A DNA stretch of 64,000 nt from Opisthorchis felineus. Taxonomy: Eukaryota; Platyhelminthes; Trematoda; Opisthorchiida; Opisthorchiidae. Positions 6,250 to 52,468 of the stretch are shown here, piece by piece. The stretch is from NCBI GenBank assembly GCA_004794785.1, contig SJOL01006408.1:825758-889757 (forward strand). Direction: 5' to 3'. The notes beneath the pieces are model-generated. The model was not told the DNA's origin. It worked only from the letters and a program-made list of their open reading frames with translations, and searched no databases. Positions within the stretch are counted from its first letter, which is position 1, and the number at the start of each line of letters is the position of its first letter. Position numbers and translations under genes: made by a program.

Positions 6250-7980
6250 CTTGTAACTGCTAGCTGTTGGAACCAAAGCTCCTGACTTGGGGATCACCAT
6301 GTACCCCGAGCGGATCATAAGATATAGGGGACAATTATCTGGCTACTCACAAGCAATCAGAATCTTGGTAAATTAGCTAAATGAGCAACCTCGTGCAAAA
6401 TCACTGAGTCCGTGCGCACAGAAGCAGCCAGGGACAGCACGATATTGGGGTGAGAAGGGTTTAGATTTTGAAACAGATTGTTGCGAAATCCACCTGTTGA
6501 GTCGCAATCTGGAAGGAACGCGCGGTGAATTTTCATCCAAGACCACCCACCTGTCTTTTTATCACAGCCATCCTGTCCAACATGATCTCTTCCGTACAGA
6601 GGGAGACGAAGCCTTTTTCAGTTCCACAGATGAGACTGCCATCTGTACACTAATGTTGACAAACCATGCAACAGTTGCTGTTCTCCAGCAAAGTAGATCA
6701 CGTAATTTGTGAGTAGTATTTACTTATATTCACTGTTCACTTTATGAATGCAAGTTTTGTGCACACTAATCACTGGCCTCAGCAAATCCAGAGCTGAAGT
6801 CATTCCGTCACCATTCACCATCCGTCATCTTGTTCTGCTATGTCATCGCTACTTTCTTATTTCCTACAGGGCGTTAAGGTTGGGTTACTTGGGGGTTGAC
6901 TTGTCAGACACACAGCGGTCTGGCTTCCAGCTCTGAAACCGGCCATGACATAAGGATAGTCTACATCCCCCTATGTTTTAAGTATTACTCCGCAACTTCT
7001 GCCACGTTGCATCAGATTAGGCTGAATAATATTAGTTATAGTTTACTAGCCTGTGATAGATAATGATAGAAGGGTTTAGAGTAAGGATACATGGCGCAGA
7101 TGTCAACTAGTCGTGATGCAAGTTCTTCATTTGTGACGAGATATGCAAACTGGCAGAACGAAAGTCACCACAAAAAGGGGTTTGCTGGACTGAAATTCTA
7201 TGGACATCTGTCACGGATGCGATTCAACGCCCGTCCGACAAATCCACTGAACCCGCTTGGTATGTGCTATATTTGTATCTTATGTGGTCATCCATCTGAG
7301 CGAATCTAAAAAGTAGTCAGATGACACTGCCATTCTAACCACTGCATAGTAGAAACACGAGACCAACTATTGCTTGTCAGGTGTAGTGATTACGGAGTCG
7401 AGTTGCCTTGATGTCCCAAGGAACTGTAGTCAGTCTTGATCCGAGACAGTTTTGTTTAGAAGGAAATTATGATTTGGGCATAAAGAAATGGGTGTAAATT
7501 TTGCACAAGCAGTTATCCCTCCAGAACTGAGAATGTTATCAATTCGTTGTAGGACATTTACGCTGTTCGTAATTGAGGATCACGGTCGTCGCACAACTTG
7601 CGTTACTCACCAGGATCTCTAGTTAGTTGGGAAACGGAATTAAGCAGGTAAATAAGTTAGAACTTGTTGGAAAAGCAACGAATTTCAAGCACTGTTGGGA
7701 CTAAATCCGACAGAACCTCAATTCGAGCATGAAAATCACTAGAACTACCATCCTGTTGATAAGCTGTTGGTTGTTTCCTCACTCTGGTGTATATTTTGCC
7801 ATTCCACTTGAACTGACTGAAATACTTGGGTATGGAACAATCTCCCAGTTTTGAAAGGGTTTCCGCTTTTCGCTTCCATCATGTAAAGGCCAACTTCAGA
7901 CAGCGAGGCTGTACATAAATGCACATTGTTTCGCTCACAACCATAGAAACTGTCCATCAATTGTGACAAATGCCGCATGC
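6250..7980. other. No supported gene
   Basis: Short open frames (6497-6712, 6748-6936 and 7091-7309 on +, 7745-7978 on -) have no recognisable domains or good paired splice sites. I see nothing else in this stretch. Confidence 0.4.
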
Positions 7981-7984
7981 TACC

Positions 7985-8560
7985 GATTAGAATTTTACGA
8001 CTGGCAGGTTACTTATTGATGGAAACCATCTCGAACGGAGACCCAGAAGTAATGGTAACACCAGATCTGAAATTTCAAATATACCAAGTGGCAGGCAGCT
8101 GGGCTACGAAGCTTACATGGATGATTGGAGGATCATTTGACCAAACGTCTCCGATGATCTTGATTACGCACATAAGATCCAACTTGGATTGTGGACAACC
8201 TGCTACATTCCCTCCAATCAACCAGGAGGTCAGGATGCTTCAGCAAGTTCAGAGATCAGGATCTAATTCAGTGGTGAGCTTCAGAAATTCGGAGTGCTCG
8301 CTAGTTTACCGCCGAATTCGAGGTGAACTACTGCACACCTGGAGAATATTGCATGGTGCACTTGGAGAAAAGCTACGGGAGAATCACATTCTAGTTTAAT
8401 ATGCGACCATACACATAAGCTGCTCAAACACACGAGGCTGAGTTTGAACCCTCCCATTACTCTGTCATTGAGAGTAGTTAACATATGGGAAGTCCTACCT
8501 GAAACATATAGTAACCCCAGAATGCGGCGAAGGTTCGAAGCGGAAGTTTGGCAGCCACAT
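7985..8560 (+). mobile_element. CR1/Jockey-like LINE fragment, end of reverse transcriptase
   Basis: This is the thumb/C-terminal part of a non-LTR reverse transcriptase. The frame open at 7977-8399 reads VTPDLK, then ATKLTWMIGGSFD, IRSNLDCGQPA, VRMLQQVQRSGSN and YRRIRGELLHTWRILHG. After a frameshift near 8400-8445, LKHTRLSLNPPITLSLRVVNIWEVLPE follows in a second frame as two short runs. The order matches the CR1/Jockey pattern: VT-DL, then MI-R-F, R-LEY--QAW, LE-VQR, YRR-RGDL--TYRI, RVV--WN-LP. The element is truncated on both sides and frameshifted, so it is a fossil. Family assignment below CR1/Jockey is not possible by eye. Confidence 0.82.
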
Positions 8561-11500
8561 GGGCAGGTGGACCGCAGTGTGCTCTCACATTTGATGTACT
8601 GCGAACATCCCGCTGGGGAGACGACGAATTGCTGGCAACGAATTTACGCTGATTGGCCTGGAAGTTGTGAAGCACAGTGGGGATCGGCCGTTGCGGGCAA
8701 CCACAAATGACAGACTTACTGACAGATTGAGTGAGTAAGTTTGACAATCGTAGTTATGCGTCGTATTTTGGAAATCCCCGGCCTCTGCGTACTTCACCCA
8801 GGTACAAGTGCTCAAGTGAACGAGCTGCGTGAATACACCTTGCGTTCAAAAGCAGTGGATTCGAGTTTCGATTTCAGTTGGATGCATAAGTAGTTCACAT
8901 ACTGTGCTGTAAATGCACCACAGCTGGCAAATGTCACAACTCCAAAAATATTCCAATCACGCATAACCAAACAAAATTGTCGCTGCGTTCTGAACTGACC
9001 GGGGGCATCTACTAGGTTAGTTGTGGGTCAGCTGGTACGTCAGGAAATTGCACATATCTCAGCCAGTCGAAATACCAGTGCACTGCATTGTTTCGCGCAG
9101 GCCACGTAGCTACTTTTCTTAGTCTATCTCGTCTCTTGTAAACTAACTGGGATTGAAGACTGCTCCAATAGCTTGCGCGATGTTGTTCGATTGTGTCAAA
9201 TTCAAGTGTCCTTTAGGTTACAGTTAGGCTAGCCTCACTCCTATAGCACAAAGTAAATGAAAAATTTGCCGCATGTGTGGGCAACACATTCTTTTTTGAA
9301 CTTACCCTCATTTCGAGACGATGCGGTTAATTGGCGTGAAGGGAAATGTCTCGATAGCACAAAACGGAGTGTTAAGGTGGTGGCAAGGTCATGGGACGAT
9401 TGGCCTTGTTTTGGTCGAAATATTCACGCGCGTGTATCCTAGTTACAGGACACGTACATCCTGTCATAACTCGAGCGAAAGTTGCTTGTCTAGGTAACAC
9501 GTACAGCAGATCTGCTGTTGTACATTTGCTTAGTCTGTGGGGAGATGGATATCCGAACCTGAATGCTGTCATCGTTTCTATCGAACTAAAGAATCGATGA
9601 TCGTACTGATACCTCTGAGATTGCTGGTACACCACCTGATAGCCTGGAGGACAATCAGTCGTTTTTTTTTAAATGCTAGTTATCCTACTCACTTACAGTG
9701 CGTTCAGTAAAACACATCACTGTTCAATTTTCAAACCAGATTTGTAGAGAAACAGTGCATGGCCGCTTAATACTTCTGGGTAGCTATGCACAGTGGCACC
9801 ATCCTTGATTGTTTTCCCGCAGTGCTCTTAATGCACAATGCGTTTGGTCTCACGGATCTGTGTCCATTAGCATAAAAGTCACGGTGTTGGCAAACGATGA
9901 CCTTTAGCAGAGGAGTCATTTGAAACGACTCGTGTATACCATCTGAGACAGTTTATGTGGGGTCATACCTAAGTCACATTTGGGAGCTACTTCAGTGACT
10001 TCAGCGCAGTAACGAAGCACAGATACACAATCAGTGAGAAACTGATTGTGTAGTGAAATATTTCTGCAGTGCAATGAAGTAAATGAATAAAACTCTTGCA
10101 CATGAAATGAATTTAGCTTTCATTGCCCCTGTTCCTTTCAGTGTTTGGTTCACTCTCCCTCGAGTCTGAGTCGCTAGTGTATGAGACTTGACATCAGTCC
10201 TAGCCACAGCGTTCTTCTTTAAGTATTCCTTTGATTTAAATTGTTATATGGACTTCAATTTTTGTCGGCCTTCACAAACATCTAGAATGACATGATGCTG
10301 CTTATGGTAGTTAACGTATGTCTCTCCAGATGGTACCTGAGATGCCAGAAAGCAAATTAATCGATGGCTGTATAATCTAAGCCTCGTGAATCAATCTTTA
10401 GCGTATTATCACGTGGTTTGTTTGCTACTTCCTTCTGAGGACATTCACCAAAAAAATATGACTGTGTGTATTTGTGTTCCGTCCAGTATGCTGCTGAGTC
10501 GGTTTTGAATATAGCTTGACTGTTCTGGGCAATAAACTGTTGATCCAGTAATTAAATATAAGTTGTTAACCATCGCACTTTGATGATATTTGCTACCCGC
10601 TGTTGACGAAACATTAACGAAGTGGTTGACGGGTCCTAATGTGGAAGTGAACTGGATCTTCTTAGAGGTTGAACAATGAAGCCTACAAACTACCGCTTAT
10701 TGCGTACTCACGACTCTTTATGTGGCTTCGAATCGGTACCCTTCTGTTCAGAAGTTTAGTGTCTGTGATGTCTGATCAGCATTGGGTACAGCATAAAGTC
10801 GGACAGGCTATGACAACGACGTAGAATCATGTCACGTGACTCATCTTTGGTAGGCTTTATCACTGACAACTCTCAGAGGAAAGCTCATATGAATCGGTTG
10901 AATGCATTGTTTTCTGGAAAGTGACATACGTTTATTGTTACCAGTGTGGAGTGTTTTAGTCTGACCTCCATCTCTCGTTCTGCGAGTCGTTATATGGTTG
11001 ATTAAAAGTGGAAGATTTGATAGTTACGGTTCAGCAGGACTTTTCATTATTTGAATACAAAAGGAAATCGCTCGTGGTTACTAGTTCACAAGATGCATCT
11101 AGTGCATTTAGCCGTTTTTCGACCTTCTCATTCATCCAGTTCTCGCTTCCAACTCCGCATCCGTCATTAAATAATGACTTTCGATCAAAATGTACCTATT
11201 GGTCCTACGACCTGGCATAAATCTGGTTGGTCTTTGCATACGTCGTTCTGATTGGCCGTCGAAATCTGAGAGGCTTTTTATCGCCATGCCCAGTCTTAAA
11301 CGTTACACCAGCTGATAAAGATGTCGCTAGACCGTACGATGCATACTGTGCACACCTACGAATGCTGATCATATGTAAGCCCTTTAAAGATTCTAAGTTT
11401 TTTCGACCACTTTACTTCGAAGGGGGCAATACAGAAAAGTAGGATGTTGCAACTTATTCATTCATTTATTCATCATATTTGTTTTTGCTCGCTCTTAGTG

Positions 11501-12400: not shown

Positions 12401-12891
12401 TTCGAGAAACTTCATGAGGCTTTGAAATATCTACACTTTGCTCCAGCTATGGAGAAAGATTTCCTTCCAAATCCTTATGTTGCGCTCCCACACTACGGTC
12501 ATTTTCTAGCGAGTTGAGCGTATTTGCATAGTCTCTAACTTGAGAGCATGAAAACTAACGCACTTTACGTCTCTGTGTGACTTCTAAGAAGAAAAATCCA
12601 ATGCTTCTATCTCTTCTAGGCAGTTCCACATTTTTGCCGTTTAGCTGCAGTGTTTAGAGTTTAAGTTATTTTCAATGCACCACTCGCCACCACTCGCGCT
12701 CCGGTTTGGAAACCGAACTGGGCTTTTGGACAAGTTTGTCGAGACACTAAGGTTTCGTGTGGGCCGGTAATATTCGCCGCGTTGATATGACCAAACCCAT
12801 CAGCACCAGACTCTATTGTCCTCCCGTTGCCTAGACGGCTAGTGCTTTGGTCTACAGTCAACTACGAATGTCTCCGAACTCCCTAAAGTTT

Positions 12892-13215
12892 ATAAAGGAA
12901 ATTACTTACAAGGTTGCTGAAAACTCTTCGACAACCCACGACCGGTTTCGCCCTTCTTGGGGCTCATCAGGTAGGCGCAGTCCCCGAGTTTCCGTCAACC
13001 TTATGTTCTACTTGAACCCAAATTGGACTGATTTCGACAAATACACTCATTTGCAAATCAATTTGGTTTTCACGGGAGACTCAAGTGAGTCTCTCGTTTA
13101 TGATGTTCTTCAACTGAATGTGCTGCACACAGGCCGCCTCATGTTTCAGTTGGTACGATATTCGAGATACCGCAGTATATTTTCATAAAGGAAACTACTC
13201 ACAAGGTTGCCCTAA
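12892..13215 (-). repeat. ~293-bp hammerhead-carrying repeat, best-preserved copy
   Basis: A unit beginning ATAAAGGAA at 12892 is followed 293 bp later (13185) by the same string and the start of a second unit (GAAACTACTCACAAGGTTGCC). One full monomer plus a partial second one therefore sit head to tail. Related copies occur at about ten other places in the window. The monomer carries a hammerhead ribozyme on the minus strand. The layout (short monomer near 300 bp, tandem dimer, type I hammerhead) is that of the Sm-alpha family of schistosomes and newt satellite 2, which spread as RNA intermediates. That link is by architecture, not by sequence comparison. There is no coding capacity. Confidence 0.8.
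12930..12980 (-). ncRNA. Type I hammerhead ribozyme
   Basis: Read on the minus strand, all hammerhead parts are present. CUGAUGA lies at 12970-12964. Stem II is GCCC/GGGC with the loop CAAGAA (12963-12950). GAAA is at 12949-12946, followed by CCGG, then U16.1 at 12941 and C17 at 12940 (a GUC cleavage site). The bases just before CUGAUGA (GCCUAC) pair with those after the cleavage site (GUGGGU) as a 6-bp stem I with two or three wobbles. Stem III is the self-complementary ACCGGU with no loop. That is poor for a monomer but suits dimeric action, as known for short-stem-III hammerheads of retro-satellites. Predicted cleavage is between 12940 and 12939. Confidence 0.87.
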
Positions 13216-15600
13216 AGTTTACTTATCCTTCTGAATCAGCCAATCACCTGAGTCAGCCTAGCTTGGTCGCGCATCCCCCACAAAAACGTATCCTATCCAG
13301 TACTGTTCAGGCGTTATGTGTGGTTATGGTTGCTAAAACTTACATGTAAAACGTCGTCAGGAGATTTTTATGCGTTTGTAGCTCTATGCAGAGGAAATCA
13401 GAATGAACCACTTTTCACTCATCCCTTGAAATCTAATTTGCTGTCAGGGTCCAACGTTCTTAAGACAACCTGCCAAGAGAAACAGCCTTTGTTCAGTCAA
13501 TTCAGTTCTTATCTCCATAAAAAATGTTTTTACTCCACCCCTAAGCTTGACAACCTCCATAAAACACCAATGAGTTGCTTTTTTACACCACGGAAACTTT
13601 GCAAATGAGTTTTTCGTTTTGAATCTGTAAACGCACTTTCTGACGATTTATTACCAAGTCCTGGGATTCACGGGGCGCAGGTTCTGTTTACTATATCTCA
13701 CGCGACTGGCACGTAGATATCAGTTCTCTGTGATTCTGTTGATCAGCCTGACTTCTGCGGTGCGTCGTGGTAAGTTGTCGTTCATTGTCGTCATGATTGG
13801 TCAAACCAAATTAGGCAAGCATAGCACTGAACTTAAAGTACTAGTTGGTCTCTATTGATGCACTTTTATGAGCATACGTTGCATAAAATCTGGTGTTTTG
13901 GTGCCCCTTTGTGTGGAAATGAAAGACCAGCCTGTCGTTCATTACGGGTGCCGCAGTACACTCAAAATTCGTGAAAACTTCGATTCTTCTTAGTGAACTT
14001 TAGTTCATTGTTTGCACAAATGTTAACCATAACATTCGAGGAGAACATCTGTTTGAAACGTTCATCTAAAAAGTTCTGAGGATGCTTTACTCTCCACACT
14101 CAATGCCTATTTGTCTGTTTACTTTTGGCCCACAACAACGACTTATCGATTTCAGTGACTGATCAATTCACATTGCTGCATACAAAGCTCTTCACAATTT
14201 GTACCAGGCACATATTTATTTTTTCATCTCGCACAATTTTCACCAGCTTGTGATTTAGAGTTCAGTGAAACTTCATGAAAAGATGTACTCGAAGCATTGT
14301 GAACCTAATTTCGTCGCGCGTTGGCGGATTGAGTTTGTCGGTTTTTTGGAAATCGAATGACTCTATGTAAATGTGGATGATGCATATTAATTGTCCATGG
14401 TTCGCACTAGGTATGCTACTCTGTGTCTGCTCACAACAAAACCAGCATACAACGGAACCGTGTGTCCTGGCCACAGACTAGACGACGTCGATTAAACAGC
14501 CAATCAAACGCTGAATACCCCATAGTCTGATTTTTGCTGGGTCGCTCACGTCTTAACTGCAATCTGGTCCAGATTTACACTTCAGGTTTTACACTACCAC
14601 TCGCTTAGTCCGTAGGCTGGCGAAAATAACAAAGCGCTTTGCGTTTGTTTTTTTCTTTCTATTCAGTTTCACTAAAAGCTGAACAGGATACAAATTGGGT
14701 ATAGCTTGGTTTGCTTAAAGTATTTGGCGAAGAAAAGCGTCTCAGTCCGAGTTTCAAGCATCGTGTGATCCGGTAGCCCCTGGTTAACGAAAACCTCCCC
14801 CTTACGAGGAGCTCTGTTTGGGTTTTCCTGGTCAATAGGCCAAAGTTTTACACTTTATACCACTCCGAGTAATGCACTGTACTGACTTGCGTGAACCGGT
14901 TGGAAGGCGCAACAGGTCTAAGGGCATGTTAGGAAACCGCAGCTTGGTACCTCTAACATTATCAATGTGTGTGGATTCGCCATTCAGTCTAGATGTAAGA
15001 TCCGGGTGCTTAAGGTTAGAAAGTTATTCACAAACATCATTATGTATTTAAGAATCAAATATCACTCGCCTAATCGTTACTGAGAAATCGCAAGGCATTT
15101 TGTCGAAACGAAGTAGGCCAAAACATGCAGACAAATCATTTCGAGTAGTCCTGAAAAAAGCAGTTTGATGCAGGTTTTTTTTTTGATGGTTGAACTCCAC
15201 CTGAAGTGCATCCACGCAGATACGACAGTCTCCAATTGGTTTTATTCTTTCTATTTCACAAGAAAAAGAATAACACTTGGCCCGATTTAACTCACACTAG
15301 TGTGAACCCTCGGCTCCATTGGGGTTCAGACTCCGATCAGCTGACAGACGAGGCGAACATATGATGTTCGATTTTATTTAGGTAATCACTACCTAGCAAA
15401 GGTTCGAAATGCAAAGCAAAGTTAGCGTGAAATGCTTGTGTTCATGGCTGGAATACGCATTCTTTCATCGCCCAAATGTGTTGCAGACGGGCTCACGAGA
15501 GAGATTAACTGCAAACCACACCCATTCAGTCGTTTTTGGACGCTGTGGTCGTCAGGACTGCGTGATCCCACAAGTGACACCGTTCTGAGACACTATCGCT
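13216..15600. other. No supported gene
   Basis: Open frames at 13318-13608 (+) and 14262-14474 (-) have no domain or paired splice sites. If 15617-15831 is a real last exon, its upstream exons might lie here, but I could not find them. Confidence 0.4.
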
Positions 15601-16244: not shown

Positions 16245-16885
16245 AAAGGTAGTTCTGCATTTAGTGAGAAAAGTTGCGAATAAGCTTGAACGAAACTGCT
16301 CACAGTGAAAACTCTCCGATATCGCATGGCGGTTTTCGCCCTTCTTGGGGTTCATCAGGTAGGCGCAGTCCCATAGGTTTTATCAACTTTATGCTCTAAT
16401 TGAGCCCGAATTGTACGAAATTTGTGAAGTGCACTCATTTGCTCACCAATTTGGTTTTTACGGGAAACTCAAGTGAATCTCAGCTACATCTCACGTTCAC
16501 GGTATTTTTCAGCTAAATGTGCTGCATAAAAGACGAGTCATGTTTCATTTTGTACGATATTCGAGGTATCGCTGTATATTCTCTTGAAGGATACTACACA
16601 CAAGGTTAGCGAAAACTCCTTCACAGCCCACGACCAGTTTTCCGCATTATTTGCGTTTAAGCCGAAGAAATGGGTCGTTGGCTGTCAAAGAGTTTTCAGC
16701 AACGTTGTTCGTGGTTTCATTCAAGGAAATCTACATCAATACCTCGAATATCGTACCATCTGGAACACCAGACGGCCTATGTGTGGCACATTCAGTTGGA
16801 AAACATGTTAAAGGAGGGCTTCAGCTGGGATTTAGTTGCACATTCCCTAAAAACCAAACTGGTGTGTGACTGAGTTTATTTGGAG
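16245..16885. repeat. Foldback pair of hammerhead repeats
   Basis: The left arm (16245-16640) is a dimeric copy: GAAAACTC blocks recur at 16307 and 16611, about 304 bp apart, with the ribozyme region on the minus strand at 16325-16375 and again, truncated, near 16620-16640. The right arm (16680-16885) is the same repeat in opposite orientation, marked by GAGTTTTCAGCAACG, TCGAATATCGTACCA, CGGCCTATGTGTGGCACATTC and AACCAAACTGGTGTG. The ribozyme copies are damaged: GAAA has become GAAAA, the cleavage GUC is GCC, and the base pair at the foot of stem II is A-C. Confidence 0.7.
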
Positions 16886-17366
16886 AATGTAGATAGACTC
16901 ATTTGGAAGTCGTGGGTCTGTCTCAAGAACGATCGTGTGCGATGCAGCTGTCTATCAGCATGTTTATAAGAAGCCTGAACAGTTGTGCAGCATCCATGTC
17001 GCATGGGAGTTTGCACGAATCTTCATTTTTTTGTCGCCGTTGTTCCGTTAGACCACCCTGCGACTTCTTTTCCACGTGTGATTTATTTTTTGTGGCGTTT
17101 CGGAAAAATGGACCAGGCTAGCATGCAGTGTTTTTAATCACATACTACACTTCTCTAAACTGGAGCTTCAGCACCGGCACTCCAGCCTGAGAAACTCGAT
17201 GCAATGGAGACTAAACAAAGAAGTGTCAGTTTATTTTCGTTCACCTGATTTCGGATCTGCTTTACAGTAACTGTGGAACAGTTAAATAATAAACGTGGTG
17301 AACTCGCGAATTTCCTCAGCCGTTTTATACTGAACGTTCGGTTTTTTAGAGATATCTATATTTCCT

Positions 17367-22349: not shown

Positions 22350-24760
22350 GACAACTTTGATGAGTCGTCTTACGCTTATGAATTTTGGGATATATCTTTC
22401 CAAAAGTGAGGACTGCAACGGTCCGCCCATCCCCAGATTATGACACAGAGCAGCATAGTTCTGGGTCTGTCCCTTCTTGGTGGAAGTAAGCGTCACGTGA
22501 TTGTCTTCCGCATTCAGTGAACGCTTTTGTGTGAAACCAGCCGTAAGCCCTGAAGTTGATGTGATGTTTATCCAGTGGGTCGAACTATAAAGTTCCTACG
22601 GTACACTCACGTGCTATGGGTCATACTGGGAGAATTCAGATAAACAGAGGAGTCCATAATATACATCCTTTACACAAATGGGTGTCCGACCCAGCTTACT
22701 CGATGTGAAAGCAAGAACGAAAACCTATACTACTGAATACAGAATTTTATGGAGTGTAGTAAGTCAGCCGATTAACGATACAATTAAATGTAACTAGCCT
22801 AATCGTCAGTAATGTGGATGACCGAATGAGCGACTCTACTTTTGCACGAAAAAAAATCCTTCTCCAAGATTTCCCTCACCAAGGACTACCATTGGAGTTG
22901 GACCACTGTAAAAGTTGTGTGAACTGGACTTGTTTCCATTTTCGTTTCCGAAAGTACAGTACGCAACCCTCAGTTTGGATTAGCTGCTGCATACTTCTCT
23001 TTATTTGGCTGTCAAATACACGGAAAGGTACATTTTCCCTACTATGAAACGAATGGCCGTGAATATGGGGTTGTACCCAAGTACTCTAACGTACAGTTGC
23101 GCCCACTTCTGGATTTTCTGTGGGACTGTTCAGCAATTTCGTATGCAGTTAGTCAGCTACAAGCATGTTTGCAAGGTCTGAACTAACAACAGATAAGAAT
23201 CAGCACGGCTGGATTCTCAATAACCTTTGCTGTGAACTTTGGCGAGTCTTTTTCCTCTCATTGATCATCAGCCTCGCCAGTGGTATTTCTCAAAACGGCA
23301 CCATCTACAGATGCGACAAACCGCTTGAAGAGAGTTTCCGGATTCTAGAATTTCTATGTACAGTGGGTGCGTAGGCGATACGCATCTGGCTAATCTAGCT
23401 ATCCGCGATATATTGACTTAATCCACCACACGTGAAGTGTGCACACAGCTAGTAGCTTAATAAAGAAGGTACTGTATTTCGCCAACTGAAGGCTATTACA
23501 AAAATTTTGTTCTGGTCGCATTGATTGTGTTCACTGGTGTTCATCCCGATCGGGTTTGCGTGATATTTCCTGAGGTGTGCGCGCGCATTTTATCTGAGCT
23601 TCTTCTAAGAAGTTCCTAGAAAGCTTTGTTCCAAGCAATTGGAGGCGCACAAGTTAAATCACGTGACAAATCGATATATAGTGCTGTCTCCCACTGCCTC
23701 CATTAATCGTGCTTTGAAAAGATTGGGGGTAATGAATTTTATTAGGAATTTCTCACATTCACACATTGGTTGATGCCCAAATATGTGCTGAACTTCACTT
23801 TGGCGTCCAGCATGGGAGAAATTCTTCTGCGATCCAGCTGAGTCGTGCTTGCGTCTGAAACTAACTGTCGGATGGACAGCTGTCTATTACTTGTAGTCAG
23901 CTGAACACTTCATTCAAACTTACTTTCTATTGTATATGCGCTTTTTTGACTGCGAATAAGCTGTATTTTGACCCGGTGGTGTAATTAAAGCTTTGTACAA
24001 CGAGCTACCATCTAAGGCCAGGTTGCTCATTCCGCGGAAATTGTGAATGGAGACAAAACTCTTGGATACATTCCTCCTTGTACAGCAAAAACTCTTTCCT
24101 CCTCATCATTAATATAAATCTTCGTGCTGATGATCATAATCATCATGGGCAGCGTCATTTTATAAACATTGTCATCATCCCAGAAGCTGTGAAAGCCGCA
24201 GCATCGGTGACAGCATCATCAGCGTAGGTGTACTCTCAGTCTGTTGCGTCAACTTGACTCATGTCCCTGAAGTCTAGGCTCTTCCATTTTACGATTGGCC
24301 AGTCTGGAATCACCTCATTCCTGTTGATTCGTCTGGTTTTCACAACAGCGTCTCACCAGAAATATAAGAAAGTTTAACGTGTAGGGTTGACCCATGCATG
24401 TCATCATTGACCTGACAGTCATCAAAAACACTAGTCTGATTGTCACAATATTCTAATGCCCAATGTCAATTGATAAAACGTACCTACATGATGGAACACT
24501 TACAACTTCAAGAAGATATGAGACCATCCCGTATGATATTTCCTTCACTTAGCAGCCCTCACGGATTGTGGCAATCCCACTAACTTGGCGGTCCAATGGG
24601 ATGTTGCTAATCAGCGTGCTCCTAGAATCATTGATCGTCTAGCCATTAATTGCAAAACTAAACATGTTCTGGTGAAATACATTCATTAATAACTTATATT
24701 GGTGCCAACGAGAGCCGCGGCTGAATTTATCGTTTATGACACTTTCTACTGACTGTACTG
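22350..24760. other. No supported gene
   Basis: The frame 23165-23374 (+) has a hydrophobic stretch (WRVFFLSLIISLASG) after 34 residues and a possible donor at its end, which is not enough to call. Some ATC-rich simple sequence lies around 24100-24160. Confidence 0.4.
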
Positions 24761-24764
24761 CAGA

Positions 24765-24905
24765 TGGTTCGTCTCGTATTTCAGTTGGTATAATAATCGA
24801 GCTACCGCACACACACACACTACTCACGATGTTGCTGAAAGCTTTCTGATAGCCTTCTACCGGTTTCATCCCTCTTGGTGACCGCTGGCGTGCCCCCTGT
24901 GGTAA
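24765..24905 (-). repeat. Hammerhead-repeat remnant
   Basis: Words of the ~293-bp repeat are present in order: TCGTATTTCAGTTGGTA, ACTACTCACGATGTTGCTGAAA, CTACCGGTTTCATCCCTCTTGG. On the minus strand GAAACCGGUA survives as the GAAA/stem III/cleavage part, but CUGAUGA is gone. A 13-base CA run (24808-24820) sits where other copies have a TATATTTTCATAAAGG junction, so the repeat junction has been replaced by a microsatellite. Confidence 0.6.
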
Positions 24906-24909
24906 CTTA

Positions 24910-25840
24910 TTCTCTCAACGGTCTTGGCCATCAATGGTGGGCCTAAAATCTAAAACATATCCCTGGGTTTTTCAGCCTTAGCTAAATGAGTCGTTGCATC
25001 GAGCAAGTGTAGTCAAATAAGTCAATAATCCCAAGCGACATGATCGGTTGAAAGTAAATGTAATGTTCCGAACTGTACAAAACTGTACTACTAGTTACCC
25101 GCCTCGGTACCATATATCGGTATATTGGTATCACAGCTACCTGTGAAAACCGAACACATGGAGAATGATGGCAAACCCAGTCGAATGATTTTACATCTAT
25201 TTAGGCTCAAGACCGACAGTCAAAGTCTGACGAATACTGTACGATTTTGCGCAGCTTTTTTCCAGTCTCAGTTTCCAATACCATCCCGCAGTAGACCGCC
25301 CATTCGATTTCTTGGAAAATGTCCCATCCGTAGAAAACTTTTCTCACTTCTACTGTCAGTTACCCACAACTTACAACGTGACGGCAAGGCTGCAGTGCAT
25401 ACTTTGTTTAATTTCTGCCGTTCGACTTGCCCGTAAAGTTCGTACTATCCTTTTCAGCGCGCACCAACCGCTAAATGTGACGTCTCACTGAAGAGAGGAC
25501 AAAAGTGCCTCAACCTAGCCTGATTTTCATAATTTTGAAATCTGCCTTCCTCTCTCGCTCCGATTTTCTCTGACCCCTATGACTTGGTGAGAACCCTCAG
25601 CTTTTCTTACAGTGAGAGGGTTTCTTTTCTATCCGCGGATATTTGCTGTAGTTAATTCTGATGGCTGGTTGTGGTTAATTTCTCTTATACCTTCCCTCAC
25701 GTTAACCGTCAGCACGCTGTAAAAGCCTTTGTATTTAGCATGATGATTATAATAGAAACCAGGTTTTGTCCCCGGGCGTTTTTTGATTGATTATCATGTC
25801 ACACTTCATCAGCGAATGAAACAAGTGTCAACCGGAGACT
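24910..25840. other. No supported gene
   Basis: The frame 25125-25436 (+) is open for 103 codons but has no recognisable domain or splice support. Nothing else is seen. Confidence 0.35.
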
Positions 25841-25844
25841 CAAA

Positions 25845-26015
25845 GAATACCAGCTGGATTACCCGTTCGTAATATTCGTCAACTGGATGTGCTACATACA
25901 GGCTGTTTCATGTTTCGTTTTGGACGACATTCAAGATATCAGTACCACCTGTAGGGTTGATGAAAATTCATGGACAGCTCACAACTGATCTGACTGTTTT
26001 GGGATACATCAGGTT
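25845..26015 (-). repeat. Hammerhead-repeat remnant
   Basis: The block GTCAACTGGATGTGCTACAT, then AGGCTGTTTCATGTTTCG and TTCAAGATATC matches the 3' half of the monomer at 12892-13215. Beyond it a degraded ribozyme region reads CCUGAUGUAUCCC on the minus strand near 26005-26015. It is too eroded to be active. Confidence 0.5.
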
Positions 26016-26739
26016 GGCTAGTCACTGATTTCCCACGAACCTTGCTTCGTACTTTTAGATCGCGGTGAGTGCTTGTGCAGCCAAACAATAAGTTACCTGC
26101 CCAATGGCCTCCAACAATGACAAAACCAATGGTGAGCTGTCTATGAGTTTTCATCAACCCAATAAGAAGTCATTAGTCGGTAATTATTGCCATCGGTAAG
26201 TAATTCACCTTATTTTTTCACGACTTTGTTAAATAACTCAATGAAGCTGACTTACTAGGGTGATTCTCATGGGGTTTCTGATGCAGTCATGAGTAACTCA
26301 ATTACCTACACTCCTGAACAGTTTTCTCCTTATTGCTCGAGGGTTGTATATAAAAGAACCAGTCTGCCTACTTGTTATCTTTCCATGTGCGCTCGCAGCG
26401 AGATGTTCTTATACTCAGACATCGAAACGTTCTATAGGTTACTTTATTTCCAACTCCTCTGCGTCAAGCGTTTGGGCAGAACGTGCCACCAACTTGACCC
26501 ATCTGAGCCAGAATGACACCCACCGGGCCGGGCACTGCAGTTGATCACTCACCATCCTTAAGGCCTGCGCACACACTTGGTATGCACGAGCAAACCTTAC
26601 CCTTGGCTATCACAGTTGAGATTTATTCATTATCAGACACGGTAAAATCACCATTGATACTGATGCTTTATTGCCGCACAATCATAAGGTTTATTCAATT
26701 ATACTTAAGGCCTATCAAAAGCATTCTGAGGTTTCTGAA

Positions 26740-32700: not shown

Positions 32701-35700
32701 GAAGAAACTGCGGGCCAACATGCAAATGATGGCCCGTGCTTCTCAGTCCGAAGTATTTCGCTTCAATCACCAACGTTCCTCCAAGAAATCGGTTACGCGG
32801 GAATCAAAGCGTACAAACCGCTCTAAACGAGGTTCCCGAAAATCTCTCTCAGCCTTCACCTCTGATTTGAGCGTGCTGGGCGACGAGGGTTATTATAATA
32901 TGAATACGTCTTCAGATTGTTGCGTAAGTCTTCATAGCCTTCATGGTTGTCAGGATATCCAAAAGGAATTTCACTTCACTTCGCTTCCTTGTTGATCGGA
33001 AACCCTGTTCTTTTCATGTCATACAAGCAACATGCCCTTCAGTTGTCGGAAAACACAACGGGTGGGATCCGCTATGGTTAGATCAACACTGGGTTGTGCG
33101 GCTTCTGGAGTCAAGTTTTCCAAACTTGCATTGTCGTTGGACCTGCCAGCTAGCCTATCAAATAGCACTAAGTCATGGCACAACAGCTAGTACTTCCTCG
33201 GGTGTACCGAGCAAATTAAGCCGTAAAGCTTTACAGGCGATCCCACTTTTACGGCGCATCTCCATTTTACATAGTTTACTTCATTCCGTAGCTTCACTGT
33301 TTGGTGTAAAGTGACATCGGAATTAGATTTGATCATTTGGAATTCAGACTATTTGGGGCTTCCGAAAGTTTTTGGTTTTTATGGTCTTCTTCTTGCATCG
33401 TTTAGTAACAAGGCGCCGGTTGCTTTGTGGTTTCGCTCATCTTGTCACGTCGTGCAAGTATGATGCATCTCCTTGGTGCAGCCTGTGCACCCCCTCAGAT
33501 CTCTTGAACGTTAGCACTGTGGGATGAGACTCAGGAGACTTTGGATTTTATTCGGTCGGTGTCAGATTCCCACCCTGTTTGATTGCGAGGATAGCCTTCA
33601 GTCCACTTTAAATTTCTTATGCACGACGGAAACTCGATGGATTTAATTGTGACTGATAAGATATTGATATTATTTCGCATAACGTGCAGCACGCAGTCTG
33701 CCTCGAAGAAAACATTCACTGAAGTTTATTTTGTCTCAGTATGGGAAAGTTGCTCAAAATCTGCAGACAGTCCATTATCGGTTTCGCCATGTTCGGGGCT
33801 TATCAGTAAGCCGTGCTCTCTGAGGGCTGGGGCTACCAGTTTCTGACTTGAACTATAATTTAGTCCAGTGTTTACTGCTATTATGCATGATGGGATTACT
33901 GGAGTTTAAGACTCGATCAACTCTCTCGTTGTCAGTTGCATAGGAGAATCTTTCGCAGGTTGAATGTCCTGGTTTCGCCTTGTTTTAATCCCACCGGGTA
34001 AAGGTTTTGGTCCTGTTTGAGTGTCATTTACAGGGCTTTAGGGTTGCAGAAGCGAACGTAATGCTCATATCGTATTACGCTGCACGCCTTTTCTTTCTGA
34101 TCACGCAGAGGTTCGATGATATGGGGTCACTTGACAATGACAATTTTTTATACAGCCTAGAGAAGGCTGTTTTTCCTGGTTTGGGAGACACTAACTCATC
34201 GCTGTTCCCAGCACACCGTAGAGATCAACCGGATTTCTGGTCCCAGAGACCCCACAAGCGAACAAGTTTATCTGTCGTGGGCACAGCATATCCGGGATCA
34301 GACTATCGAACTTTGGCCGGTGCTGACCTAAGCTTGGGTTCCAGCGTGCCCGGAGCCTACTGGGCCACAGTCCACTCGGATACTCTAGCATTCCCCCCAT
34401 TAAACAACACATTCCGTTTTCCTGCTCCTGGTCCTCCCGTCGCTGGTTGGGCGCATCAGCTTGCTCAGTCAGGTTCGCCCACTTCACGGAGACCTGCATC
34501 GCACGCTACAGGCGAGGTACTACGCGATGTGTCGCCTTCGACAAAGGTTGCGCTACCCACCGGAATTATACCACCTCCGTTCAGCCCTGCAGAACATCGA
34601 TCAAGATTTTCCGAGAGCAAGTTGGGTGGACACACGTCATCGGTGGCTATTCCTCGCCGTCGAGCCGCTCAGAAGAATAAAACACGCCAGATGTCTGAAC
34701 CAAGGAAAGAGAGGAAACTCATGGAAGCAAGTGGCACCGAGTTAACGTACCATACACAACAAGGACGAGGTAAGATACATATAGTTTCTGGTTATTTCTG
34801 CGTGAAGTTTGTGCCATACCCCGTTGATTTTTCCCCTAAACTGATGAGAGTTTGAACTGACTTAACATCAGATGTTATGTTAACCAAGACATTTTTTGTG
34901 TCCTGGTTCAGAAGTGCCCAAGGATAGCCTCAGGATTTCCCATAAGGCTCAGACGACCAGCCTTCAAAATCCTGTTTTCTAATCTTGAACTGCTAAATAG
35001 TAGTAGTAGGTTGAGTCACAATTTTTTTTGGTTCAAGACCTTTCACAAGTGAGCATTTGTCATAGTCAGCCAGGTTTTATTTGCAATGTGCTTGTGGGTG
35101 GTATTTTTTTACGGTGTCTGAAAAAGAACTCGGTAATTTGTAGATAGCTGCACGATTTGTAAAATCCACATTCACGTCACTCTCGTTCGAACAGTCTTGG
35201 CGCGGGCAACGATATGCTGCTTATGTTTAGTGTGCCTCTGCACTTCGCTGTAGACCAACCAGAATAATTATGCCAGGATCAGAGGAGGACTGTTCAAAAG
35301 AGAGTGTTGGGAACGCAAATTAATTTAACTGAATCAAACCGAACCGGAAATTTCCCGCGGTTTTTTCCTTGACCAGTGGCGTTACGACGATGCGCGGGGA
35401 GTAACTAATCACCACTGGGCACTAGACATTCGTTTTAGAATGCCTTACCAGAGACCACAACTCACCAGACCATTTGGAGAAACAGGCTCAGTACTTTTTT
35501 TATGCTTGCTGTGGTCCAAGACCACTGACACAGTCAATTATGGATTCCTCACCGAGTTATTAACATCATATGGTCGTTGGTTTGTTCGCTGAGCTAGGCA
35601 ATTTGATTGCGAACGTTTCATCATCTGTGTTACCTGAGCTATCAACATTCTCCTAATTATTGACAACATTATGTTGGATAACCGCCATGTACTATGCAAC

Positions 35701-38700
35701 CTTGGCAACCCTGTAAAATCTCTCGAATCTCTAGGACGATAAAACTGAACCTTCTGACTTAGAATTTTAGCTCTCTACTATTCTGCGTGGAAGGCGAGCA
35801 CTGTCGAGCTATAAATGCTCGACCCTGCTTAGCTGACATTCTGACCAATCAGGGCGGCTTGCGAAGCATCCGTCCAATCGACATGATATTCGGTTATTTG
35901 GAGCGGCTCGCCTCCGGACAGTGGGTCACTAAATTGAAAGTGACCAATTGTGTAGGTCAGTGGATTCTCACCAGTGCTTTGTGTGAGTATTAAGAATGGA
36001 ATATGGGTCGGGTGGTTGGTTGTGATGGATGTACCTGCTTTTGGCCTGATAAGCAAGAAAGTTGCGTGTGTTCGGCGAGAGTGCATTTATGAGTTAAATG
36101 CCAGTTTTTTTGGAGTCGCGTAAGTTCCATAATGACAACGGTGAAGGACTTTTTCTGTGCAGCTTGCAGTGTGCCTTTTAACGTTAGGACGTTGGGGTTT
36201 TCAATTTGATGATGGATTTTCGTCCAATCAAATGAACTTTGTTGTGAACGTTTTCCTGTTCCGAGCCTTTCGAATTGTCGAAATTCACCAAACCTGTTTG
36301 AGTTTACTCGCCTTCTCTGAGGGTCATCACTCAAAGGTTGCTAGTTCACCAATCAAGGTTGAGGTCATCAAATTCGCGAATCAACAAGCCACTTTCGGGG
36401 GCTGCACGCGCAAGAGCGTAACTGACTGAAGTTAGGTCTCTACTCTACAAATTAGCCTGAAGAAATCACGTTAAACAAATCAAGTTAATGCTTTGTGGGA
36501 CGGATGCTCCTTCAAAATATCACCACTAAAGTTTATCAACATTAAAACTAACCGGAAATCTCAGTTTTAACTGGTCAAGATCCGAATTTGTCGACTGTAA
36601 GTCGCAGTCACTTATTCATTTTCACCGAGTTGTAATGCGATTCTCGGAATTGAAGCAAGAGGTACCAAACTATGATAGGCTGCGTATGACTGCAACCAGC
36701 CGGCGACACCATAAGGCCAGAAACATGGACTAAAATGGATAAAACTGCGATCGATCAGCTGTAGTCTCCTTCCTTTGACCCAGTGGCCAACTAACCATTT
36801 GGCGTAGGTGCGGAGAGAATAGGCGTAATAAGTTCACCCTATTCTGATTCACACAACTCAACTAGATGTTGGCTACTGAAAGGTTCGAACTTGGCCTCCG
36901 CAACTGCTGCCGTCATGGTTTCGCAGAACGAGAAAAATGTATATGCTTCGTGCCGTCCTGCATGTGAAGGTCATGGAGGATTCTGGAGAGCCCATTACCT
37001 CTCCCACCCTTCATGAAGCATACCTGGTTGGCCTAGTCCCCGAATTTTCGCCAAGCTAATTTCGTTTTGGAACACCAAATTGTACAGTATCATTAACAAC
37101 ACCAAGGGACAACACTCTTTTTTCAGTGCCATACAACCGTGTTAGTCTGCTTGAATAAATCCATGTATTGGAAAGAAGAAAAAAGGGGACAGGGAGGGTA
37201 ACTTGGGTCAGCCCCCCCATAAACATCCAAGGTGCCTACACGTCCAACACCCAGTCGGACAACCTGAAAAGGAATTGACGGCATGAACGCCACTGACATC
37301 GGTTATCCATCATATTGTCCATTGTGTGCAAACAAGCAGAGGGAGAGCCACGTGGGTCCTGTCTTGGCAGGCGGATGGCACCAACTGCGCGAATACTTTC
37401 GGTAACATCCTATGTTCACTTGTGTTACATCATATTCTGTCCACCTCTAGGTTTTCGCCACTCCGAATTAGATATGAACGATAACGCTCTTATTGGAAGA
37501 CGGTAACTCAGTATGCGTGACGTATGGCTCTGTCATCTTAGCTTGTGGTGCTGAGTGCATCCGCATAATGAACTACCTTCTGCTTCACCAAAGACCCGTT
37601 TTTATCATCATCATCATCATTTACAGCATGATATCAGTGTTCAACGCCGATGCTTCGCTGCCGTACTTCTCTAGCCGATTCCAGCTACATTTCTGGGACA
37701 TATTTTCTGCGATAAACAACTCAATACAAATCTGCTTGACGTTGGTGAGAGGTTCAGTTGAATTTCACCAAAATCTCTCGTTTAGAGTATTGTTTCTCAT
37801 TCAACTGGCTTGAGCAGGTTTTTATGCAATCATGTCATGATAGATAAAGGTGAAGATTAAGGTGGTGAGATGAAGTGAACTGGAAATCCGACGAATACAC
37901 TCATTTGCATTCGAATGTGATTTTCACGGGAGACAACTGAATTCCAGCTGAATCTTTTGCTTATGATGTTCTTCAATTTAATGTGCTACCCAAAAGCCGT
38001 TTTATATTTCCGTTGGCATATTATGCCATATATTGCATTATATTTTCTGGATGCAACATAAGGCTTACAGATATTTGTGGACTGTGCCTACTTGATGACC
38101 TTCGAGAAGGGCGGAGCCGGTCTTGGGCTGTTGAAGCGTTTCCCGCAACCTTATGAGTAGCTTCTTTCATGAAGTGAATATCGTTTGGTTTAGTCCATGT
38201 CACGCAGCTGAGCTAATGTAAAGCTAACATTAATTAATTTGGAGACCAGTGTCCCGTTAGAATTTAATAAACCTATGAAACACTCCATTATGGTTTCTGT
38301 AGGTTCTTCCATAGCTTGCTGCGCCCCATTTGGCGCACTCCCAAATCCCACTGGTAGGCGTGTGGGCTTATGGTCCAAGTCATTTTGATTCTTCTCCAAA
38401 CGTATATTGCAACCAAATCTTTCTTGATCAGGCGCGATTCTAAACTAATAATCCCACTTTCAAACGTTCTTTCCCTTGGCAAAAGTGTGAATGGATTGCT
38501 TGATGGGAAAGTACGGGGTGAAAATAAGTAACTTCTTCTACTGCCAGATGACGTTTGAGTACGCGGGTGTGACCAACATGCTAACACTGGTTCATCAGGA
38601 AAGCCACATTTCTCATGCACTGATAATGTCACCTCAACTGTTGCTGGAACGTTCGCAAGCCTATTGCCGAACTCGGTGAACAGATCCACGACCACCTGAT

Positions 38701-45834: not shown

Positions 45835-46145
45835 AATCACTGGACTATCTCGGGCAATTTGGGTTCAAGTAGAACATAAGTTTGACGGAAGCTGGGGGGC
45901 TACGCCTACCTGATGAGCCTCAAGAAGGGCGAAGCTGGTCGCGCTCCGTTGGAGAGTTTTCAGCAGCCTTATGAGTATACAATGTATACAGTACATTGTG
46001 ATGCCTCGAATGTCGTACCAACGGAAACATGAGGCGGCCTAGTGGGGCACATTCATTTTAAGAAGAACATCATCAAAGAGCGATTCAGCTGGGTTCGAAG
46101 CGAGTCTCCTACGAAAACCGTAGTGGTATGCAGATAAGTGCGTTG
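45835..46145 (+). repeat. Hammerhead repeat, near-complete inverted copy
   Basis: An almost complete monomer opposite in direction to the 12.9-kb copy: GGGTTCAAGTAGAACATAAG, the ribozyme region at 45901-45950, GAGTTTTCAGCAGCC, TCGAATGTCGTACCAACG and GAAACATGAGGCGGCCTAG. The ribozyme keeps CUGAUGA, stem II GCCU/GGGC with loop CAAGAA, and a GUC site. But GAAA is GAAG and stem I pairing is broken at two positions, so activity is doubtful. Confidence 0.72.
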
Positions 46146-46149
46146 GTCA

Positions 46150-48540
46150 AAGGATGCACAACAACAACGGTATAGTCAATAACTTTACTCGCTGTAAAAA
46201 TGATGTCAGGTCATTAAAAATTGCAACATATTTCGCCTGCCTACTTCCATGGTCCAGATGGAGGTGACCAAAGCAAAACAGTGCATGTGACGTCCAGTGC
46301 GCACGAACAAAAGGCCGTAATTGGAGACCTGTTTTTATGCTGAAAAGCATGTGTGTTAGTAAGGATAACCGAAATACAATGAACATACTGTAAATTTGGT
46401 TACGTATATTTAGAAGTAACAAGACGGACTTGAACCGAACAGAACGGAATTGCCATCATGTAACTTGTTCACCCTCCAGGACAACCTTGAATTGATACAA
46501 GAGGTACAAAGCATCAGTCGGATAAACAAACTGTCACAACGTGACAGAGTCACCGCCTGCTACACAGCAAACCCATAAGCGACTTTTCGGGCTGTACACT
46601 CTCGTTTCATTCCAGACCAAACCTAGCTTGCAATGAGTGACGCGGAGACGACGGACAGGTTAATGTTGAATTGTTTGAACTATTTGACCAGTGATTCTCA
46701 CGGACGTACAACTGTCTGCAACTCATCAGTACGCAGCTTCTTCACCTCGAAACGGTTGTGCTGGGAACGTGCATATGACTATATGACGTTGTGACAACCT
46801 GCCCCATGAAAATGTTTGCCAGACAAATCCTAATAAGGTGAAATGCGGCTTGCAGTAATCGGACACACGCCCTCTAGTGTCTACCAATGTCTTATTGAAT
46901 GAAGCGGTTCATAATGTGTATAATTCCATTGAGCCAAGCAAATTTCGGACTCAAGTTTTATTCAATGAATGAGAGAGCTATTTTCCGCCGCATGGTGAAT
47001 GTACACTGAAAACCTACTTGGCCGGGACGATACAACAAATTTAAAAACTTGATTTCACTAAAGCAAACACAACTTGATCCACAGCCTTATTTACAGTTCA
47101 AGGAGAATCTAATCTGAAGGCGCACTAGAACAAGAGCTCTCAACTGCAGCCAACATCTTGATAGTCTGCGGATCTCGATAGTTTTACGAAGGAACATATA
47201 AACCGAGGGGAACTCAAGACTCTTACCGCCACTGTTGTAAGAAATCCTATTTAAAGACGATATACTGAAGGCTGTATATCACTCTGACCAGAGTTCTTCC
47301 CGCTCAACAGTTCGAAACTGGTAAGCAAGCAGACGCTTGTCTTCCCTTAGGCTCGAAGATAGAGTGTCTGTTCATGCCCAGAATACGTCGATTTTTGCAT
47401 AGCGTTTTGCGGCTGCTGACGGCCTGTTGACGCACTGTCTACAATGCGGCTGCTTATCAGACCAAATCACCACGTCACCGCACAGTGGCATTGTAGTGGT
47501 TGAAGGTTTCCTACACCGCCATCCAATTATTTGTCGGAAAGGCGCTTTTTCGCTTTCTGGTCCTACTATCGCAGTCGTTCCCCGCCACACACATTTTCGG
47601 TATTGACCACGCAACCACAGCTCCCCCCGCAATGATAAACTCATGTGGTCTCACTCCCGACCTGAATCAGACATTTGTTGACAGAGGACCAATCGTTTCT
47701 TGCACCTATGTTTGTGTTCGTTTTGCCCACTACATCACATTAGATATAGCTGCTGTCTTGAACTTTGCGTACACGTAAACTTGAGATGACTGCGTAACAA
47801 CGGAGCTAGGTCTGGGTGACCATCGAGCAACTGAAATCGATAGATTGTTGAGACGTACTTGACCAGCAATCAAAAAACTTATATGACATTCATGTGTGAA
47901 ACTATCGTTCATGAACACTGTGTGTTGCTCCTTGAGGTTGAGAACCACTGTCACAGGGATTCATTCCTCTGAATTCTCAGTTGTTGATCTGTCCAGCCAG
48001 CGGTCTTTTTAGGCGTTTTTTCTGCACAATTTATCTTCAGTCATCAGCATCTGCATCCTCACCCAATAACTTCGCAGGCGAGGACGTAGTGTGGAAATCA
48101 CGTAAATCACGCCATAAGGAGAAAAAAGATCTTCGTCTGCAGCTTGAATAACGTGAGTAATAAGAAACGATCAGAAAGCCAACAGGGTTTGAAGACATGC
48201 CTTCCTTATAAAGAGTGTCTTATAAAGAGTTTCCACGATAAATCAGTGGAAGCGGTTGCAAACTAGTCAAAATAGTTGTCCTAGGTAGCTGACTGATGTG
48301 GAGGGTTTGGTGAAGCTAAGGTCTCTGTTGAATTTAAATCTGTCCTGAAGCGTGATTCACTTTACTTTTTAGCTTCGACCCTTCTGTTAATAAAACTGTC
48401 CTAGTTTCAACTACGATACTTTAGTGATTTTGGAGTAGTGTCGTCCAAGGGGAAGCTGAAGAGCTGCTTCGATTTTTTAAAGCTGGAGTGATCCTTATAC
48501 TTGCAGATGCAAGGCTTGTTGCTGGGGAAATTGTTTCCGA
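46150..48540. other. No supported gene
   Basis: Overlapping open frames at 47372-47644 (-) and 47500-47778 (+) are in GC-richer sequence but show no domain on either strand. The frame 46147-46422 (-) is likewise unexplained. Nothing else is seen. Confidence 0.4.
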
Positions 48541-50420: not shown

Positions 50421-50424
50421 GTAG

Positions 50425-50579
50425 GCAAGATTAATCTAAGCCAAAAAGCCGAGAAGCACTGTACAGGCCTACGTTTACAAATCCTTTCATATTATCAACA
50501 AACTATAAGTAGCTCAGAAGGAAGAACCTTCCGTAAACCTTCGCTCTGTAAAGTCATCACTCAAGGAGTCGTTCAGCAG
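50425..50579 (+). CDS. Possible internal exon
   Basis: Acceptor CATTTCGTCCTGTAG and donor GTTCAGCAG|GTAACC bound 51 open codons that end in phase 0. The product begins KINLSQKAEKHCTGLRLQ and includes YYQQTISSSEGRTFRKPSL. A second open stretch follows at about 50821-51021 with donor CTCAC|GTAAGG in a compatible phase, but its acceptor is poor. No domain is recognised. Confidence 0.25.
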
Positions 50580-51877: not shown

Positions 51878-52468
51878 TTATTGATTTGACTCCAAGGCGT
51901 TCCTTGTCTCTTTGTTTGTGAATCCAATAGTCGGTTCTTCTTGAGTATTCCGGTGGAGATGTTGGTCCTTTGCATGTAGTGGTGTGTAAATTGGATCCAG
52001 CTCAATGCGTCGGTTGATCGAGTCCGCCGTGGAGTACCATGCTTCCAGAAATTCTCTTCCGTGTCCCGTGTCTCTATGTGCCAAACTTTTTGCGTTTTCC
52101 AGATTGAATTTGTGGCCTTCTTGGTCGTCGTGTATGGATAGTAAGGATAGGGGGTAATGTCTCCTGACGGCCGCGTTGTGTTCCTTTATTCGGGTGCATA
52201 ACTTCCTCCAGGTTTGTCAAACGTAGAATTCGTTGCAGTCGTCACAGTTGATCTGGTATATCACATTGTTCCTCTTGGTTTTGTCTCGGTTGTCTTTCGG
52301 TCTTGAGATTAGTTTCCTTAGAGTGGTATTCGGTTTGTGGGCCACGAGCATTCCTTTTTGAGCTATTGATCTGGTTGCGAATTCCGATATATTCTTGATG
52401 TATGGTGGAATTACCCGTCTGGTGGCTTGTGCTTGCTGTTGCTGCTGTTGGGAAGTCTTCTTCTTCAA
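51878..52468 (-). pseudogene. PLE connector and GIY-YIG endonuclease with one nonsense codon
   Basis: One minus-strand frame runs 197 codons from 52468 to the TAA at 51880-51878 with a single internal TGA (52219-52217). It starts in a glutamine run (SQQQQQQAQATRR) and continues with PPYIKNISE and LRKLISRPKD. The GIY-YIG block VIYQINCDDCNEFYV follows. The stop replaces the Gly of the YVGQT element (GGA to TGA), and QTWRKLCTRIKEH and the conserved HRDTGHGREFLEAW region follow in the same frame. The CDDC pair fits the usual Cys motif of PLE endonucleases. One point mutation separates this frame from being open. Confidence 0.88.

Follow-up and report, generated by a model that had tools for sequence, protein, structure and literature searches.

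A 317-nt insertion in the genome of the trematode Opisthorchis felineus, hereafter element A, is best explained as a non-autonomous, retrozyme-like retroelement that carries a type I hammerhead and was target-primed, most likely through the reverse transcriptase (RT) and endonuclease of a Penelope-like element (PLE) of the same genome, a reading to which we assign a probability of roughly 0.65. The insertion was found in a 64,000-nt stretch of contig SJOL01006408.1 (assembly GCA_004794785.1, positions 825,758 to 889,757), referred to below as the window, along which all positions are numbered. Its features are listed below.

12893-13209, minus strand: whole retroelement A, 317 nt, comprising a 293-nt unit and a 24-nt overlap, bounded by the duplication
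12881-12892: target-site duplication copy 1, 12 bp, at the 3' end of element A, identical to 13210-13221
13210-13221: target-site duplication copy 2, 12 bp, identical to 12881-12892
12889-12917, minus strand: terminal direct repeat, 3' copy, extending a few nt into the duplication (repeat search)
13182-13210, minus strand: terminal direct repeat, 5' copy (repeat search)
12908-13005, minus strand: long hairpin, the extended stem I around the hammerhead (fold)
12928-12982, minus strand: type I hammerhead with core and stems I, II, and III (pattern, Rfam, and a family model scoring 84.4 bits, this copy being among the 19 sequences used to build the model)
12971-12976, minus strand: stem I 5' strand GCCTAC (sequence reading, pairs counted)
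12964-12970, minus strand: core CTGATGA (sequence and strict pattern)
12950-12963, minus strand: stem II GCCC/GGGC with loop CAAGAA (sequence and fold)
12941-12946, minus strand: stem III ACCGGU, self-complementary (sequence and co-fold)
12934-12939, minus strand: stem I 3' strand GTGGGT, with cleavage presumed between 12940 and 12939

Element A is a single copy, not a head-to-head pair, and its duplication is perfect, the 12-mer occurring just twice in the window. An earlier note on this DNA had proposed a retro-repeat with an intact type I hammerhead, which is borne out on both counts: the insertion is bounded by the 12-bp duplication, and the motif is complete, with core, stem I, stem II, and cut site all in order. 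The note's '~293-bp repeat' stands as a spacing of 293 nt, but the 29-nt direct repeat (90% identical) that sets this spacing marks the two ends of one element, and its satellite-type tandem repeat had to be abandoned, as neither the locus nor the window holds a tandem array and element A is a single dispersed retroelement.

Positions 12976-12934 of the minus strand read GCCTAC, CTGATGA, GCCC, CAAGAA, GGGC, GAAA, CCGGT, C, and GTGGGT, as transcribed previously. This copy has the CUGANGA...GAAA core, A15.1-U16.1, and the NUH cleavage site of a type I hammerhead, as well as stems I and II with the open end on stem I, as in that type. At the gathering level Rfam gave 0 matches in the window, and the copy lies below the type I hammerhead threshold; its best match is Hammerhead_HH9 (RF02275), which reaches 34.2 bits where the gathering score is 52 (E 8.2e-5 in the 64-kb window); this match includes the extended stem I, although stem III is looped in HH9. 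Stem II pair 21-32 is UG, CG, or UA in all 19 chosen copies, with two-sided changes not beyond those of shuffles (119/500), and no covariation beyond shuffles was found in 17 matches from the window and unselected DNA (78.3% paired vs. 79.5% shuffled).

Stem III is predicted to favor a dimer, in agreement with the earlier note. By folding energies that leave tertiary contacts out of account, two 55-nt molecules co-fold into two hammerheads with a common 6-bp ACCGGU stem III (− 41.5 vs. 2 × − 18.7 kcal/mol), stem III of a single molecule is limited to an A-U closing CCGG, the imperfect 98-nt hairpin that encloses the hammerhead (12908-13005) reaches − 41.7 kcal/mol (z − 4.04), and the 293-nt unit folded as a circle reaches − 88.7 kcal/mol (z − 4.3 vs. 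100 shuffles). In the minimum-energy monomer fold of 12908-13005 the CUG of the core is paired with CGG and the core is not formed; the hammerhead is therefore not the predicted preference of a single molecule. The best reading of these models is that the hammerhead of element A would act mainly as a dimer. A newt-like stem III of this kind is already known, and to call it one of the shortest possible forms was an overstatement: axolotl HHR_Amex1 has a single-pair helix III with a palindromic tetraloop and is better as a dimer, and Penelope hammerheads are described as being without helix III, in the sections of PMC7229834 and PMC7761336 that treat them. Compared by description, element A resembles newt satellite 2 and HHR_Amex1 in its one-pair stem III with a palindromic tetraloop (here A-U around CCGG) and in being expected to work better as a dimer, and differs from them in host and tandem-repeat setting. 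Sm-alpha of Schistosoma mansoni, also compared by description, is alike in that its type I hammerhead lies within a short, non-autonomous retroelement (parts of PMC6155905 and PMC8490949); its full hammerhead is reported there to be very fast, and Sm-alpha, which had been cited as acting as a dimer, is thus a poor example of a dimer-only ribozyme.

Metazoan non-LTR retrozymes are described as carrying a type I hammerhead in units of 170-400 nt of low GC content, with platyhelminths named among the hosts (Cervera and de la Pena 2020, PMC7229834, in the part that defines them). The non-coding unit of element A, at 293 nt and 45% GC, falls within these bounds, its longest stop-free run when tripled being 37 codons on the RNA strand and 125 on the other, and the likeness extends to duplications of more than 4 bp, as those retrozymes require, and to co-existing PLEs. 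The copies of the unit are dispersed, mostly of at most about one unit, and include many opposed pairs, in contrast to the dimers to long tandem arrays described in that source. No array was found in the window, where partial second laps occur, as in copy B below and at L016 and L027 elsewhere in the genome (L numbers denote loci outside the window). The ORF for RT and GIY-YIG endonuclease of a PLE is absent from the 317-nt element A, which on its sequence is best regarded as retrozyme-like and non-autonomous.

The repeat is abundant. Down to a 32-nt scrap, 14 family insertions were grouped in the window, and two other contigs of the 630-Mb genome (43% GC), sampled without selection over 100 kb, held 11, one of them a 48-nt scrap; as a rough guess from those two contigs, scraps included, 11 per 100 kb extrapolates to tens of thousands of copies. 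Besides element A, the window holds the following copies.

16284-16905: copy B, head-to-head, hammerhead 16316-16370 (minus) broken
56326-56871: copy C, head-to-head, broken hammerheads 56516-56570 (minus) and 56793-56847 (plus)
45846-46151, plus strand: copy D, unit in the other circular order, hammerhead A15.1 changed to G
37872-38180: copy E, hammerhead arm 38052-38180 (plus) against a body arm (minus), 10-bp duplication, hammerhead 38080-38134 (plus) broken
24666-24878, minus strand: copy F, decayed
25806-26177: copy G, head-to-head, decayed
33580-33930, minus strand: copy J, decayed, core CTGATAA
54283-54431: copy K, upstream of the window's PLE remnant

Nothing is read into the position of copy K, since unit copies are so common. 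The family model found 7 hammerheads in the window at E 1.8e-6 or better, of which the six besides that of element A are altered at conserved positions. Among 17 family-model matches from the window and unselected DNA (one of them, the partial L029:73-103, may come from a different family), 4 have intact cores and 13 are broken or incomplete. Rejection of the motif in most copies had been named in advance as evidence against the ribozyme, and in terms of core intactness most copies do fail, a result that we read as the decay of dead copies. The subfamilies differ in length (293 vs. 306 nt), and an alignment artefact arising from this difference probably accounts for part of the apparent excess of arm starts near reference positions 100-127.

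A search of the organism's own genome with the RF00163 covariance model gave at least 21 matches, a lower bound, from 74 candidates scored out of 115,518; 16 of the matches exceeded the cut-off, and 0 of 14 control genomes had any. The 20 stretches fetched cover all 21 matches, these loci being thus selected by hammerhead, and 15 of the 20 clearly place the hammerhead within the family of element A. The match of L017 to the unit family is weak, and its three hammerheads have another look; other hammerhead families are present in L010 and L018 (at least two of the 16 places over the cut-off), and no core was found by a simple pattern in L026 and L028. The nearest relatives of element A are L027 (91%) and L024 (89%). 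A pattern scan of viral contigs gave 0 matches.

Several further observations were made alongside. A second hammerhead family is represented in the window at 57982-58026 (minus; neighborhood 57400-58700) by the core CTGATGAGTTCTAATAAGAGTGAAATTCGAGTC, which is decayed and has relatives in L010, L018, and L042; chance was set aside as a source of this core at 58020 (minus), which belongs to that other family. Like that of element A, stem III in L042 and L010 is a palindrome (ACTCGAGT), and the flanks of 57982-58026 match L042 in opposed pieces and may likewise form a head-to-head insertion. At L017:2200-3640, three cores of a further look, one with stem III ACAGCTGT, were found on both strands inside a 1.5-kb segment and are separated by inverted repeats. 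An insertion with a 14-bp duplication at L014:2288-2724 has two intact hammerhead cores head-to-head on opposite strands, so that RNA transcribed from either strand would contain both a ribozyme and the sequence complementary to it. The same hammerhead insertions recur in a segment duplicated about 5.8 kb apart at L019:1848-3047 and 7669-8912, 98.7% identical over about 930 nt around the core. At 50320-50460 (minus) the window holds what is perhaps a truncated retro-copy: its first ~30 nt are similar to the U2 snRNA 5' end, and over its full length the match scores a weak 24.2 bits, the gathering score being 46.

Less expected than the newt-like stem III was the insertion anatomy of the family, with its two fixed 3' ends and head-to-head pairs. 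In a pairwise comparison of 18 hammerhead sequences (17 loci and one from the window, a set selected for hammerheads), homology usually stops ~65-82 nt from the first C of the core, and the 5' ends vary; the exceptions are the L013 minus and L014 plus arms, which run to 241-244, and the two L019 copies, which match throughout. Counted by whole insertion (those of at least 60 bits, with one duplicated L019 set dropped; 54 groups in all), 42 insertions gave 59 outer 3' ends, 32 of them at a site P (reference positions 295-345), 22 at a site Q (450-500), and 5 elsewhere, the chance level being about a third for two 51-nt windows in a 293-nt unit. Site P lies 47 nt past the presumed cleavage site and Q about 150-160 nt further on. 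Opposed neighboring arms within 70 bp form 17 head-to-head and 0 tail-to-tail pairs, with 5 of the 17 coming from the 11 insertions in unselected DNA. By program, 14 pairs end at P and Q, 2 at P and P (L011, L017), and none at Q and Q; one end of copy B, placed at reference position 585 by profile, falls at P by a separate reading, which brings the P/Q pairs to 15 of 17 (p about 0.001 against random pairing of ends). Copy E, L009, and the first pair of L022 did not pass the program's overlap filter; manual reading adds them as three further P/Q pairs.

Duplications scoring at least 10 flank 8 of 41 insertions compared to 7 of 1,514 mismatched flank pairs (Fisher 6e-10), in a test that omits weak insertions, edge insertions, and the L019 duplicate and in which the bounds of A, L009, L022, and L027 were set by hand, favoring them; in the other 33 of the 41 a clear duplication is missing. 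The eight are A, E, L027, L012, L014, L022, L009, and a pair at 36692 of the joined L034-L038 stretch. Six of the eight are head-to-head pairs with the duplication flanking the whole pair, which indicates that such a pair arrived as one insertion; one of the six (L037-L038 region, 13 bp) comes from unselected DNA. The family thus shows, unlike the single copy A, head-to-head inverted copies with duplications as PLEs do. Arms ending near one full lap (inner starts at 2, 3, 6, 16, and 19, plus A and L027) would suit a circular template, a multimeric linear one being the alternative.

We tentatively propose, at slightly less than even odds, that one unit RNA is commonly primed at P and Q by both cut target strands at once, a single round of the PLE machinery then writing the unlike-ended head-to-head pair. 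The pairs could instead stem from fold-back self-priming of the cDNA or from one inherited inverted master copy, which we consider rather unlikely as a general account, though either may explain part of the pairs. Self-priming is the explanation preferred for PLE palindromes in the relevant part of PMC3846280; it would also be expected to yield inner arm starts within 15 reference positions, as seen in 5 of the 17 pairs, and L011 and L014 align across the center. In the remaining 12 pairs, however, the arms join more than 15 positions apart, by arm bounds that are imprecise owing to the nearly palindromic hairpin, and 14 or 15 of the 17 pairs end at two different sites. A fixed inverted master copy is disfavored because the inner joints vary.

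The proposal of a PLE machinery draws on the PLEs of the same genome, one of which is present in the window as a remnant.

51881-53177, minus strand: decayed Penelope-like element, with an RT piece at 52791-53177 and C-terminal pieces at 51881-52528

The RT piece matches RVT_1 at E 4.6e-6 (26.9 bits, under the Pfam cut-off of 29.6), and the C-terminal pieces resemble what we take, judging the motif by eye, to be a GIY-YIG endonuclease. Against its own genome the RT piece gave at least 150 matches (150 of 1,319 candidates scored). Long open frames contain many of them, and the 15 match rows that share one identical score suggest a recent PLE spread. Two matches, L046 and L049, lie in stop-free frames of 4,871 and 5,323 residues, and a second PLE group in the genome has an RT ~53-56% identical. 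Among the fetched PLE relatives L040-L058, a minimal hammerhead core was found by pattern in 17 of 19 (not in L049 or L055), and their 3' ends past the presumed hammerhead cut, compared with L050 over the 19 loci, lie at 40-46 nt in 10, at 67-88 nt in 6, and at 23 nt in L045, with L050 and L051 reaching the edge of the fetched sequence. In an uncontrolled count, repeats of 8-15 bp were seen on either side of L040, L041, L042, L043, L045, L048, and L056. L054, flanked by a 14-bp duplication, is a head-to-head pair whose ends differ; the ends of L057 also differ, but no duplication turned up there, and L051 is a near-palindrome outside the two-ended scheme. Opposed PLE RT neighbors within 5 kb were head-to-head in 6 of 6 cases, judged by eye among the 150 of 1,319 candidates scored. 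For PLEs, the corresponding part of PMC3846280 describes inverted pseudo-LTRs (pLTRs) arranged head to head, one of which may bear a tail, together with duplications of 8-10 bp.

The unit accordingly resembles PLE pLTR hammerheads in a cut ~40-47 nt before a fixed 3' end and in two alternative 3' ends, and PLEs in head-to-head pairs, duplications of ~8-16 bp, and 5' truncation. It differs in being without an RT-endonuclease ORF, in its fuller hammerhead with a long looped stem I, in the much greater distance of Q from P compared to the PLE tail, and in sequence, with no clear similarity to the PLE copy L050 (best E 0.068). The shared insertion marks and the existence of a second, more distant PLE group, the pLTR comparison having covered one group, leave room for the unit to be itself the pLTR of an autonomous PLE in this genome; its copies would then be pLTR remnants, solo or paired, and the unit would belong to a PLE instead of forming a retrozyme-like element of its own. 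We regard this as unlikely: as the pLTR of the window's PLE group the unit is rejected by sequence, that group having a different pLTR with a minimal hammerhead; unit matches occur in 3 of the 19 loci of that group (L048, L056, L057); and tblastn with the window's PLE pieces (E 1e-4) found no RT or endonuclease beside units in L009-L028 or in the 100 kb of unselected DNA.

It is more improbable still that the unit is a pol III SINE moved by a LINE, with the hammerhead merely carried. The fixed 3' end, 5' truncation, and duplications would fit target-primed reverse transcription in general, and the unit has a stretch that we take, by eye, to be B-box-like, but the 3' end of element A has no poly(A) or simple tail, and opposed pairs with two 3' ends resemble this genome's PLEs, with which the comparison was made. 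Chance resemblance to a hammerhead, for which it speaks that no Rfam match in the window reaches the gathering score, can be dismissed, given that the strict core and stem II pattern has a single match in the window and none in 100 dinucleotide shuffles and that similar cores recur in the same repeat at 15 of the 20 fetched stretches.

In the retrozyme-like reading that we prefer, a multi-unit transcript would fold two hammerheads onto a common ACCGGU stem III and be cut, giving rise to unit RNA, perhaps as a circle, that the PLE machinery would take up. Reverse transcription would start at P, 47 nt past the cut, or alternatively at Q, in keeping with the two recurrent 3' ends, and often both target strands would prime, one at each site, with the two cDNAs joining head to head into one insertion flanked by a duplication of ~9-16 bp. 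One insertion machinery acting on unit and PLE RNAs would best explain why marks are shared without shared sequence, and we infer that PLEs supply it. Several points count against this explanation: locus A, having one hammerhead, cannot by itself release unit-length RNA; the unit shares no clear sequence with L050; the pLTR of the second PLE group may be the unit; and the absence of covariation beyond shuffles, the 5 pairs with close inner arm starts, the 33 insertions with no clear duplication, and the near-palindrome L051 weigh on the same side.

The mobilizing enzyme of metazoan retrozymes is left open in the pertinent section of PMC7229834, which names PLEs as a strong candidate, and among the papers found on twin priming and Penelope none was on retrozymes by its title. 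A hammerhead element and the PLEs of one genome that share insertion marks provide a testable link between retrozymes and PLEs, with P and Q as concrete RNA sites for an in vitro PLE assay of the kind described in part of PMC11167929. If true, double priming at P and Q would be a direct structural sign of who mobilizes metazoan retrozymes.
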